Of a DNA stretch of 64,000 nucleotides, positions 15,238 to 64,000 are shown one piece after another; positions within the stretch are counted from its first letter, which is position 1, and the number at the start of each line of letters is the position of its first letter. Both the position numbers and the translations under genes were made by a program. Location of the stretch: assembly GCA_020444475.1 (NCBI GenBank), contig JAHLKV010000002.1, positions 789,947 through 853,946 on the forward strand, given 5' to 3'. The notes beneath the pieces were generated by a model that saw only the letters and a program-made list of their open reading frames with translations, was not told the DNA's origin and did no database searches. Source of the stretch: a bacterium (GTDB taxonomy: Bacteria > Zixibacteria > MSB-5A5 > GN15 > FEB-12).

Positions 15238-15337
15238 CCCATCCGTCCCGGGTGGGCGAAGTAGGCCGCGGCGGCCCTTCTTTGTCATTCCCGGCCGCGA
15301 CCGGGAATCCACTTATGCCAGACCGGGTGGCCCGCGG

Positions 15338-15672
15338 GTGGCCCACCATTTATGGTGGGATGGTGCACGGAGACGTACACCACGCACGGACCCACGCGGG
15401 ACGGGCGTGTTAAAGAAGCCCTGGGTTAAGTTTATTGCTTGCCGAACCTAACGAGCCATGTGAGGGAATCGGCGTACTTGACAGTGAGATGCCGTCGGGT
15501 GTCGTTCGCTGGAGGCGAACTAGCACCCGACGGAACAGTTTTGAACGACCCGTTGCCGCCCACCCGGGACGGATGGGCTACAGGTAACTGGTATCTTCGT
15601 CAGGGTCCGTGGTGCACGGGGACGTACACCACGCACGGACCCACGCGTGACGCCATACGATCGATTCCACCA
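15338..15672. repeat. Cluster of dispersed palindromic repeats (types A, B, C)
   Basis: This gene-free stretch holds a type A palindrome (CCCACCATTTATGGTGGG, 15342-15359), type B repeats at 15361-15386 and 15609-15634 (GGTGCACGGGGACGTACACC), and one 42-base nested palindrome of type C at 15492-15533 (outer arms CCGTCGGGTG / CACCCGACGG, inner arms GTTCGC / GCGAAC). The same three types recur, inverted, at 31.7-32.2 kb. Confidence 0.85.
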
Positions 15673-23725: not shown

Positions 23726-24004
23726 ATGGCAGACAAAAGAAAACTCCGCGACCTGGTCTCGGTCGGCAAGGCGTTTGAGCGTGACCTGGCGCTGCTGGGG
23801 ATCACCGAGGTTGAACAGTTGAAAGGCCGCACGGCCGATGAGCTTTACGAGCGGCTTCAGGATATCACCGGAACACGTCAGGATCCGTGTGTGCATGATA
23901 CGTTCCGCGCCGCGATCGCCCAGGCTGAGAATCCTAACCTTCCCGAAGAGCAGTGCCGCTGGTGGTATTGGTCTAACGTGCGGAAGGGGAAGCAGGGGCG
24001 GTAA
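23726..24004 (+). CDS. Helix-hairpin-helix protein (Cdd1/pathogenicity-locus type)
   Basis: The protein of 92 residues contains LRDLVSVGKAFERDLALLGITEVEQLKGRTADELYERL, a helix-hairpin-helix, then the conserved end TRQDPCVHDTFRAAIAQA...CRWWYWSN. This matches the small Cdd1-like family (PF11731). The function is not established; the fold suggests nucleic acid contact. The start has no strong RBS. Confidence 0.85.
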   Translation: MADKRKLRDLVSVGKAFERDLALLGITEVEQLKGRTADELYERLQDITGTRQDPCVHDTFRAAIAQAENPNLPEEQCRWWYWSNVRKGKQGR

Positions 24005-24019
24005 GTTTGGCGATTGGGG

Positions 24020-24045
24020 TCATCCTTCGACTCCGCTCAGGATGA
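24020..24045. repeat. TCATCCT/AGGATGA palindrome
   Basis: TCATCCT and AGGATGA flank TCGACTCCGCTC. The same loop with GTCACCCT/AGGGTGAC arms recurs at 43442-43471. Confidence 0.7.
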
Positions 24046-24195
24046 CGAAGGGGTGGCGCTCAGGATTGCGTCGGCAGGGATAGTAGGTCAGCTCCGGTCG
24101 CGGTTCGCAAACCCGATGATGATGACCGGCTGTTCGCGCGACCGGTGCTGACATGATCGGCGACGGTCCCGCCCCGTGTTGCTCCCGCCATCCCT

Positions 24196-24411
24196 GTAGC
24201 GCCGGTCCCCTCCACGGACTTCTCGATCGGCTTTCGCTTTCGATTCGACGTGTGTCCGTGGATGAGCGGGCGTTTTTTCAAGGACCTGCGTGTAGCATAC
24301 ACGCCCATGAGAGGCGAATCAGGTCCTCGCCGTGCAGGCGAACGTCGAACGATCTCAATCGAATCCCAGGCAGTCGACCGACGGTGGGAAGGTGACAGGG
24401 ACCTGATCTAC
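24196..24411. repeat. Paired inverted REP-like element (copy 1, 216 nt)
   Basis: The element starts GTAGCGCCGGTCC and ends, on the other strand, GTAGATCAGGTCC. Inside lie the partner arms AGGACCTGCG and GAATCAGGTCCTCG. So two GTAG-footed hairpins with loops of roughly 70 bases face each other around a short linker. The same arrangement, one base longer, occurs at 29109-29325. This is the layout of BIME-type REP pairs. Confidence 0.7.
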
Positions 24412-24450
24412 AGGGGACTGATGAGCTAAATCCCCCTTCGACTCGATCAT

Positions 24451-24478
24451 GGCGGGTTCGAAGACGGACTCGCCCTAC
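24451..24478 (-). repeat. GTAG-footed hairpin (GGCGGGT type)
   Basis: On the minus strand GTAGGGCGAGTCC leads into a loop and AACCCGCC. Related copies are at 26178-26205 and 63899-63926. The rest of the interval up to the subtilase gene (24479-24878) shows no supported gene; it is relatively AT-rich. Confidence 0.7.
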
Positions 24479-24878
24479 AGCTTTCTTTCCTACATCACAC
24501 ACGCCCCGTCGAATCAAGAGTAAACTATCTATATTTCTTGTATTTTTCCGCGTCTCCACCGACTCTCCATACGCAGAGGGAGTGAGAGACGTCTCACTGA
24601 TTTTCATCTTCATGTGCATCGGCCTTACTGGGGACTCCGCACGGAGCTGTGGGAGTTTTACATCGACGTCAACCGTGAAGGAGGTGATGTTCGGGGCGTA
24701 AGGTCGAATCGCAGTTTCGCAATGATTCTCAGCAAGTATAACGGTTAACCCGATCGACAGACGGATAGATCTGTGCGCCGGTCTCAAAAAGCGGCTTCCG
24801 GCGTGGAGGGTGAACTACGCCCGGCAGGGACGGTCGGGTTGGCAGATCCGAGATCGATCACACAAACTGGAGAGTGGT

Positions 24879-26063
24879 ATGCGTAAGGCTTTAGTTCTTC
24901 TTATCGGCGCTTGTGCGCTTCTGCTGTTGGCGGTGGGATGTTCCACCGATTCCCCGACTTCGTCGGCGATAAACGATGACCTGTCGTCGAAACCTGCGAC
25001 CGTGGACGGTACGGTCAACCTGCTGGTTGGTTTTGAAAAAGGCAATCGTCCGGACAACGCGGTCAAGGCCCTCGGCGGCTCCGTAAAGCAGGAATTCAGG
25101 CACGTGCCGATCGTCTATGTGTCGATTCCGGTTTCGGCCCGCGCGGCGCTTGAGAAAAATCCGAATGTGCGGTATGTCGAAGAAGAGATGATGCGTGACT
25201 ATGTCGCCCAGGTACTCGACTGGGGTGTCAATCGAATCGATGCCGAGTATGTGTGGACGAACAGCGTCTATAACGGCGCCGGTGTCAATGTTGGCGTACT
25301 CGACTCAGGTGGCGACATGGACCATCCGGACATCACCTGGGCCGGCGGCTATTCGGCGATCAACAGCGATGTCAACGACTGGGAAGACAAGGTCGGCCAC
25401 GGAACCCACTGTGCGGGGATTATCTCGGCCAACAACAACGATATCGGTGTGGTCGGTGTCGCTCCCAACTGCAATATCTATGCGGTGCAGGTCGGCTCGC
25501 GGCGGCTCTCGACCCTGGATATCATCGAAGGTATCGACTGGGTGATCGCGTCGCACCACGATGCTGACCCGAACAACGATATCATGGTCATCAACATGAG
25601 CTTCGGCGGTCCCGGCTCGACAGCGGAAGAAGACGCGCTGATTGCGGCGTACAACGACGGCATCCTCTGTATCGCGGCTGCCGGTAACGAAAGCGGCGCG
25701 GTGAGCGCGCCGGCCAGCTATAGCTGCGTGATGGCGGTGACAGCATCGACCTCGACCGATGCCTTCGCGACCTATTCGAACTACGGTCCCGAAGTTGAAC
25801 TAATCGCCCCCGGCAGCTCGATCCTGTCCACCTACAAGCGCGGCGGCTATGCGACCATGAGCGGGACGTCGATGGCGTCGCCGATGGTGACCGGTGCGGC
25901 GGTGATCGCCTGGCAGGCCCATCCGACCTACACCAACGTCCAGATGCGGGCGCTCTTGAACGGCACGGCTGAGGATATCGGCCTGGGTGCGTATTATCAG
26001 GGGAATGGACTGGTCGATGTCGAGAATGCGACGTTGGGCACGACGAACGGGAATGACTATTAG
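24879..26063 (+). CDS. Subtilisin-family (S8) serine protease, lipoprotein
   Basis: The start used is the ATG of MRKALVLLIG; a lipobox LAVGC puts the acylated cysteine at 21. An I9-like propeptide fills residues 45-108 (VNLLVGFEKG...VRYVEEE). The catalytic triad is visible: Asp142 (VLDSGGDMDH), His174 (GHGTHCAG) and Ser331 (SGTSMASP), with the oxyanion Asn270 (AAGNESG). It should be an active, membrane-anchored extracytoplasmic protease. It stands alone, followed by hairpin repeats that could serve as terminators. Confidence 0.95.
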   Translation: MRKALVLLIGACALLLLAVGCSTDSPTSSAINDDLSSKPATVDGTVNLLVGFEKGNRPDNAVKALGGSVKQEFRHVPIVYVSIPVSARAALEKNPNVRYVEEEMMRDYVAQVLDWGVNRIDAEYVWTNSVYNGAGVNVGVLDSGGDMDHPDITWAGGYSAINSDVNDWEDKVGHGTHCAGIISANNNDIGVVGVAPNCNIYAVQVGSRRLSTLDIIEGIDWVIASHHDADPNNDIMVINMSFGGPGSTAEEDALIAAYNDGILCIAAAGNESGAVSAPASYSCVMAVTASTSTDAFATYSNYGPEVELIAPGSSILSTYKRGGYATMSGTSMASPMVTGAAVIAWQAHPTYTNVQMRALLNGTAEDIGLGAYYQGNGLVDVENATLGTTNGNDY

Positions 26064-26082
26064 TAGGCTGTGACAAAGTAGT

Positions 26083-26205
26083 GGCAGGACCACTTCGTCC
26101 TGCGGACTCGGGTCCTGCCCTACTTAGGCACTGCATTGTGTCGTCAGGCGACCCCGCCTGACGACATCAAAACGAAGGGCGGGTTCGAGGACGGACCCGC
26201 CCTAC
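26083..26205. repeat. Three successive palindromes, two with GTAG foot
   Basis: Minus-strand GTAGGGCAGGACC...GGTCCTGCC is at 26083-26123 and GTAGGGCGGGTCC...ACCCGCC at 26178-26205. Between them, 26140-26165 is a perfect 11-bp stem GTCGTCAGGCG/CGCCTGACGAC with a 4-base loop. A sister of the last one is at 29395-29420. Confidence 0.8.
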
Positions 26206-26211
26206 AATCTA

Positions 26212-29054: not shown

Positions 29055-29108
29055 TCCGGCAAACTGCACCGAGTGGACCACCACCTATGGTCGGATCGTT
29101 CCGGACCT

Positions 29109-29325
29109 GTAGCGCAGGTCCCGTCCGCCGCCGTTTCGGTTGACAGTGACAAAGGATAGGAGCAGTTGCCTTGATGGTTGTTTGATCTTTTCGAGGACCT
29201 GCGTCGAACATCACCCGATGAGAGGTCCGATCAGGTCCTCGCCGGGGTTGCGCCGCTCGCAAACACGTCTTTCGATCTATCAGCGCGATCTAATACGGAA
29301 AATCAGTGAACGGGACCTGATCTAC
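29109..29325. repeat. Paired inverted REP-like element (copy 2, 217 nt)
   Basis: The sequence starts GTAGCGCAGGTCC, has the partner arm GAGGACCTGCG about 80 bases later, then GATCAGGTCCTCG and finally GGGACCTGATCTAC, which on the minus strand reads GTAGATCAGGTCC. Arms match for 9 to 10 bp. Order and spacing equal those of copy 1 at 24196. Confidence 0.75.
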
Positions 29326-29358
29326 AGGGATAAGATACAAGCAGTGCGGTCCGGCAGC

Positions 29359-31695: not shown

Positions 31696-32215
31696 GATGG
31701 GTGGCGATGCCGGGTAGCCCACCATTTATGGTGGGTTTGACGAAAGCGCACGGGTGGCCCACCATTTATGGTGGGTTTCACGGAAGCGCGTGCGTGGTGT
31801 ACGTCCCCGTGCACCACGGAACCTCACGTTCCGTCGGGTGCTAGTTCGCCCCCGGCGAACGACACCCGACGGCATACCCCTCCCACACTTTTACCACCAA
31901 CTTTATGGCAACCCCGAGCACGGTCCCCTTTTATGAAAAACTATGTGTGCTGTGAAAAACAAAGATACGCGCCACACGAGGTGTTGCGTGACGAGGTCTA
32001 TGCATCAACACTGCAACGAGTTGGAGGGAAAAAGAGAAAAAACGACCCTGAAAAATGACAAAACAAACCCATTTCGCCGTAATGCGATGCCAAACATGCT
32101 TGTACGACGAAGAAGCCGTTTGACGGAAGCGCGTGCGCAGTGTACGTCCCCGTGCACCAAGCCTCTCAGCGTTCCGTCGGGTGCTAGTTCGCCTCAGGCG
32201 AACGACACCCGACGG
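31696..32215. repeat. Cluster of type A, B and C palindromes, with two ~98-nt direct copies
   Basis: Two type A palindromes (CCCACCATTTATGGTGGG) lie at 31700-31717 and 31757-31774, the first with a GTAG foot. Two direct copies of a B+C unit lie at 31776-31873 and 32119-32216; each ends with the 42-base nested palindrome. Between the copies is about 245 bases of clearly AT-rich sequence without a gene. Confidence 0.85.
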
Positions 32216-32230
32216 CTCAGAACGAAGAAC

Positions 32231-63728: not shown

Positions 63729-63993
63729 GTAGGGCATGTCTGTCCGCAGACGTGCCATGACGTTCTTGTAGGGCATGTCTGTCCGCAGACGTGCCGTCAC
63801 GTAGGCCGAGGCTGCTTGCAGCCCGGCGCTTGTAGGGCAGAACCCGAGACCGCAGGACGAAGCGGTTCTGCCATCGCCTTTGAGGAAGTTGACGGCATGG
63901 CGGGTTCGAAGACGGACCCGCCCTACCAGCTGATAAGGATTTGAAGGCGCTTGTAGGGCAGAACCCGAGACCGCAGGACGAAGCGGTTCTGCC
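63729..63993. repeat. Cluster of six GTAG-footed palindromic repeats
   Basis: In order: GTAGGGCATGTCTG type twice (63729-63756, 63768-63795), GTAGGCCGAGGCTGC (63801-63827), GTAGGGCAGAACCC (63832-63872), an inverted GTAGGGCGGGTCC (63899-63926) and an exact repeat of GTAGGGCAGAACCC (63953-63993). Each is GTAG followed by arms such as GGCAGAACC/GGTTCTGCC. The two copies of the last type are identical over about 50 bases including flanks. Confidence 0.9.
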
Positions 63994-64000
63994 ATCGCCT

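Follow-up and report, generated by a model that had tools for sequence, protein, structure and literature searches.

What are W1 and W2, two similarly built elements in the 64,000-nucleotide stretch of DNA analyzed here (the window)? The initial annotation had located both elements and described the order and spacing of their parts, all of which was borne out (Table 1). Each element consists of two inverted units that form facing hairpins, and the first arm of W1 carries one mismatch (GTAGCGCCGGTCC). Judging from sequence comparison, we propose that W1 and W2 probably belong to a family of dispersed, non-autonomous mobile repeats of the REP/BIME (REPIN-like) type, in which two GTAG hairpins with very long loops constitute a heterodimer.

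Table 1. Positions of W1, W2 and the adjacent family-2 unit in the window
Feature	Position	Strand	Description
W1 whole element	24196-24411		Two inverted units, facing hairpins
W1 left unit	24190-24293	+	CTGTAG-CG-CAGGTCCC-type arm, 73-nt loop, GGACCTGCG; model R1, G000:C4:814136-814239, E 8e-15
W1 left-unit tag	24196-24199	+	GTAG; CT precedes at 24194-24195
W1 arm 1	24200-24208	+	CGCCGGTCC; single mismatch versus arm 2
W1 left loop	24209-24281	+	73 nt
W1 arm 2	24282-24290	+	GGACCTGCG
W1 inter-unit linker	24291-24317	unstranded	27 nt, includes CCATGAGAGGCG
W1 right unit	24315-24417	-	Inverted copy, NN = AT; model R1, G000:C4:814261-814363, E 5e-13
W1 arm 3	24318-24326	+	ATCAGGTCC
W1 right loop	24327-24398	-	72 nt
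W1 arm 4	24399-24407	+	GGACCTGAT
W1 right-unit tag	24408-24411	-	GTAG (CTAC on +), then AG on + (CT on -)
W2 whole element	29109-29325		Two inverted units, facing hairpins
W2 left unit	29103-29206	+	Model R1, G000:C4:819049-819152, E 5e-15
W2 left-unit parts			GTAG 29109; stem 29113-29121/29195-29203; loop 29122-29194, 73 nt
W2 linker	29204-29229	unstranded	26 nt, includes GATGAGAGG
W2 right unit	29227-29331	-	Model R1, G000:C4:819173-819277, E 1e-15
W2 right-unit parts			Stem 29230-29238/29313-29321; loop 29239-29312, 74 nt; CTAC 29322-29325
Single family-2 unit	24083-24152	+	GTAGGTCAGCTCCGGTCGCG, ~33-nt loop, CGCGACCGGTGCTGAC; 43 nt upstream of W1

The two halves of the element are inverted copies of a single unit, as an alignment of 23 half-units from the genomic copies, a comparison proposed in the initial annotation, makes evident. 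The unit follows the plan CTGTAG-NN-CAGGTCCC, ~73 nt, GAGGACCTG-N'N' and is ~95 nt long, and a complete element comprises one unit, a linker of 18-27 nt and an inverted unit. A search of the host genome (G000; 3.41 Mb, six contigs, 79% complete) with W1 as the query returned more copies in both orientations. The initial annotation had held that a lack of further copies would speak against its reading; a covariance model of the half-unit (R1) identified 25 units in G000 at E ≤ 1e-10, a modest copy number, arranged as 10 full inverted pairs and five singles. Beyond these units, G000 holds a decayed pair on contig C5 and two remnants, and some of its units are single or truncated. Strong long-loop matches among the 98 other genomes searched were confined to two congeners, G001 with one full pair and G002 with at least 12 units. 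The covariance model detected no clear long-loop unit in the 96 relatives outside the genus, where weak matches (E above 1e-4) mostly come from REPs that share the stem foot and have short loops; two of the weak matches (L071 and L074) are ~100 nt long. The number of units in G000 and the restriction of strong matches to the genus indicate that the W1/W2 pattern is not due to chance. Both G001 units and, apart from L004R (TTAG), all of the aligned G000 units carry the tag GTAG, whereas G002 departs from it with GGAG, and the CT immediately before GTAG is nearly invariant among the aligned half-units. All 15 elements or units checked lie outside open reading frames of at least 180 aa, the gene layout around the copies varies and no Rfam family scored above its gathering score for the elements.

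Does each half fold by itself, or do the arms pair across the halves? In G000, the NN dinucleotide is CG in the left units and mostly AT in the right units; it is CG or GT in G001, and GG, GT or CG in G002. Its complementarity to N'N' is kept via double changes (CG/CG, AT/AT, GT/AC and GG/CC), with 98.5% of cells paired and 8 double-change cells versus 2.7 in shuffles, and RNAalifold recovers the same stem unaided. Because NN and N'N' change together, a fold with a separate hairpin in each half is supported. The initial annotation had called for a covariation analysis of arms versus loops and had regarded arms that drift without compensation as evidence against its reading; the stems show compensatory changes, and the loops contain no conserved pairs. 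Its alternative folds across the halves found no such backing. In the cross-half helix, one NN pair is mismatched in all 15 aligned elements and the second in 10-11, so that this helix is interrupted at NN in every element, with no sign of selection. The NN-mismatched halves correspond to the heterodimer arrangement of GTAG REPs, whose suggested role is protection from enzymes removing long hairpins (PMC3733652).

Why are the arms conserved? Among left units or among right units, arm identity is 93-95%, and the two internal arms (2 and 3) match the end arms in conservation. The loops are 72-76 nt long in all 23 aligned half-units and retain weak homology, with an aligned identity of 0.39-0.43 versus 0.31-0.33 for shuffled loops. 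Thus, the conservation of the arms noted in the initial annotation stands, whereas the loops are not unrelated as it had implied. Structured loops were rejected, since individual loops showed no gain in folding over shuffled sequences (mean z +0.36). L004, L017 and L054 are segmental duplicates with flanking homology that extends for hundreds of bases; they diverge by 0.10-0.19 in the loops, 0.15-0.19 in the flanks and 0.10-0.16 in the arms, and hypermutable loops were also rejected because these loops diverge no faster than the flanks. The family-wide arm/loop distance ratio is 0.036-0.059; between L004 and L017, 6 of 58 arm positions and 20 of 123 loop positions differ in the conserved columns. 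The arms are therefore preserved across the history of the family but not evidently in copies that stay in place, as judged from small counts in one duplicate group with one disrupted member. Given that the arms decay nearly like the loops in the duplicates, arm conservation looks tied to mobility, and the small counts from this one group suggest that the arms may have been purified through being needed for movement. Outside the group, loops are never closely similar between two G000 pairs, and thus recent copying is not apparent in G000. A tension remains between arm purification by movement and this lack of recent copying. The only sign of recent amplification is provided by tandem, near-identical long-loop pairs with a period of about 263 nt on the G002 contigs L079 (1-481) and L067 (1198-1680).

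Are the sites of the elements shared between congeners? The interval that contains W1 (23973-26209) spans 2.2 kb in G000 and about 130 bp between the flanking genes in G001, and W1 is absent from the corresponding G001 site. Besides W1, the G000 interval contains a unit of family 2, further REPs and a subtilase-like gene. The gene (24810-26063), which owes its putative name to its sequence, is bracketed by W1 and REP clusters. The family-2 unit (Table 1) has dozens of matches in G000 and G001. Conversely, the G000 site orthologous to that of the single G001 element is present but is occupied by a 172-bp inverted pair of sister family 2, the linker of which shares CCATGAGAGGCG with W1, and an orthologous G000 copy of the G001 element was accordingly rejected. 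L003 and the G002 locus L086 were dropped as an orthologous pair since their similarity covers only 35 bp at one end. These locations bear on the alternative that the elements are sites maintained by the host, with the arms as binding or processing sites (for a duplex-DNA protein or as an RNA double hairpin) and the loops as neutral spacers of fixed length. Host maintenance would fit arms that are ~94% identical beside loops near saturation, the loop length held at 72-76 nt and the lack of recently copied G000 pairs beyond one segmental duplication, but it is unlikely given that the locations are not common with G001, that some units are single or truncated, that the neighboring gene layout is variable and that the L004/L017 arms are hardly protected in place.

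The element boundaries address a further alternative, in which the elements are MITEs of an ordinary DDE insertion sequence with CTGTAGNNCAGGTCCC as terminal inverted repeats. No target-site duplication was found at boundary offsets of 0-7 and lengths of 2-9, the internal arms are as conserved as the ends, lone half-units exist, and no larger element in G000 carries these ends except a RAYT-disrupted copy. Such an origin is thus very unlikely despite the MITE-like size (~216 bp) and terminal inverted repeats. An integron attC-like site, which conserved ends and a variable middle might suggest, was dropped, judging from the sequence, because the ends are GTAG...CTAC and half-units occur alone.

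Which enzyme could mobilize the family? RAYT genes number five in G000 (NCBIfam NF047646, above cut-off) and three in G001, and none of them is flanked by intact long-loop units in these incomplete genomes. Each G000 RAYT has its own REPs nearby, and one has only a single near database relative, in a Candidatus Zixiibacteriota MAG, from which we place the host in this phylum. A cognate RAYT is adjacent only in the case of sister family 2, in G001. The family-2 unit consists of GTAGGTCAGCTCCGCTTGC, a loop of about 35 nt and GCAAGCGGTGCTGAC, with an inverted partner of the same plan, and three tandem family-2 GTAGGTCAGCTCC units with loops lie just upstream of the G001 RAYT L115. L115 is 44% identical to the G000 RAYT L032 (G000:C2:66124), whose REPs begin with GTAGGGCGGGTCC, and the foot GTAGNNCRGSTCC is common to the long-loop family, family 2 and the L032 REPs. 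Both proteins contain W-Q, D-H and R within the motif WQHRYWDHVIR, which match, by motif and not by structural alignment, the GTAG-contact residues of E. coli TnpA-REP (PMC6006769). Based on the likeness of L115 to L032, the shared foot and the GTAG-contact residues, we regard RAYTs of the L032/L115 subgroup as candidate enzymes for the long-loop family. Short GTAGGGCGGGTCC REPs like those of L032 also occur in the window at 24448-24478, 26175-26205 and 63896-63926, and short-loop GTAG-NN-CAGG repeats are present in G000 and in relatives.

Another G000 RAYT, L035 (G000:C4:329984-330571), is the only one that lies between two units, with a complete left unit at 329846-329948 on one side and the remnant of a right unit at 330571-330672 on the other. 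L035 is bracketed by its own CCCACCAT repeats and is therefore read as an insertion into a long-loop pair. The unit and the remnant retain a pair-like order and orientation, and L035 could alternatively be the RAYT of an autonomous parent (unit, RAYT gene and inverted unit) from which the pairs derive by internal deletion. Such a parent is very unlikely because arm 3 is missing, the L035 flanks are a segmental duplicate of L004/L017, the bracketing CCCACCATTTATGGTGGG repeats also occur without a RAYT (window 15335, 31711 and 31751) and the CCCACCAT repeat also truncates unit L062, suggestive of insertion into a pair. The truncation of long-loop units at both L035 and L062 suggests that repeats of the CCCACCATTTATGGTGGG/CCCACCAT type insert into other REPs. 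The window contains CCCACCATTTATGGTGGG repeats at 15335-15374 and 31711-31790, and CGTCGGGTG...CACCCGACG palindromes at 15489-15536, 31828-31875 and 32171-32216 that resemble the repeats around RAYT L034. A perfect 55-nt direct repeat, GTAGGGCAGAACC...GGTTCTGCC, at 63825-63879 and 63946-64000 (121 nt apart) represents a further GTAG-type REP.

How might an element with such long loops move? In single-stranded DNA, such as the lagging strand, each unit would fold into a hairpin with GTAG and a 9-bp stem that closes the ~73-nt loop. A REP-associated tyrosine (HUH) transposase would recognize the stem together with the GTAG tag and the foot NNCAGGTCC and would cut at the CT that precedes GTAG, and the element would move without target duplication. 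The loop would act only as a spacer of kept length, its sequence being unread, and the differing NN in the halves may prevent the whole element from forming a single long perfect palindrome. In the E. coli system, the upper half of the hairpin plays only a non-specific role and cleavage occurs at CT (PMC8266576). Since TnpA-REP reads the lower stem and the tag, a long unread loop is plausible. We infer from these parallels that a RAYT moves the long-loop family, as well as the cut site and the spacer role of the loop. Several observations weigh against the REP/BIME reading: no RAYT is flanked by intact family units; the fragmented G002 assembly is rich in units, some of them nearly identical, yet yielded no PF01797 match and no RAYT; the ~95-nt units are well beyond the 20-40 nt of the REP definition; and the G002 tag is GGAG instead of GTAG. 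The family may alternatively form a distinct HUH-linked class, a tentative and rather doubtful option, in which only the foot and the 9-bp stem are recognized and a single-stranded spacer of ~73 nt, constrained in length and unconstrained in sequence, serves as a ruler between two co-bound or co-cut sites.

The REP/BIME reading would extend the RAYT/REP system to hairpin loops more than 10 times longer than usual, in the uncultured phylum Zixiibacteriota, with loop sizes graded from about 5 through about 35 to about 73 nt on one stem foot within one genus. Because the loops amount to natural randomizations, they could be used to test what RAYTs read, and the family likewise offers a test of whether arm conservation in such repeats stems from mobility or host function.

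How does the family compare with known systems? Our literature search turned up nothing on RAYT repeats from Zixibacteria or on REPs with long loops. GTAG REPs and BIMEs share with the family a 5' GTAG tag at the foot of a 6-13 bp stem, an intergenic location, inverted dimers with spacers of 20-100 bp and heterodimers that differ at stem residues, whereas their loops are mostly 2-3 nt and their units 20-40 nt long, in contrast to 72-76 nt and ~95 nt here (PMC3733652). The tag GT[AG]G at the hairpin foot is also present in the family, except for GGAG in one species (G002). The published GTAG survey discarded repeats with an unusual loop length (PMC3733652), which may explain why long-loop forms went unreported. 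Short GTAG-NN-CAGG REPs of the same bacterial family (L068, L072, L154 and L156) have the tag, stem foot and facing pairs in common with the long-loop family but have loops of about 4-8 nt. Like TnpA-REP REPtrons (PMC8266576, PMC6006769), the host genome encodes RAYTs with the GTAG-contact motif and the elements carry CT directly 5' of GTAG; family 2 adjoins a RAYT in G001, whereas the long-loop family has no flanking RAYT.

REPINs of Pseudomonas fluorescens resemble the family in that their ends are conserved, the spacer keeps its length but not its sequence, the organization is inverted, singles coexist with doublets and mobilization by RAYTs has been proposed (PMC3116915). However, REPIN spacers fold into a hairpin with compensatory changes, whereas the loops of the family exhibit no excess folding and each half is itself one long-loop hairpin. 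The initial annotation had interpreted the elements as a BIME with unusually long loops. This interpretation is partly supported and is the best-supported reading: inverted GTAG pairs, intergenic copies, compensatory stems and the presence of RAYTs favor it, and membership is incomplete because of the ~95-nt units and the lack of a RAYT flanked by intact units. Although the family falls outside a strict REP in length and adjacent RAYT and outside a REPIN in spacer folding, the element works like a REP dimer or a REPIN.
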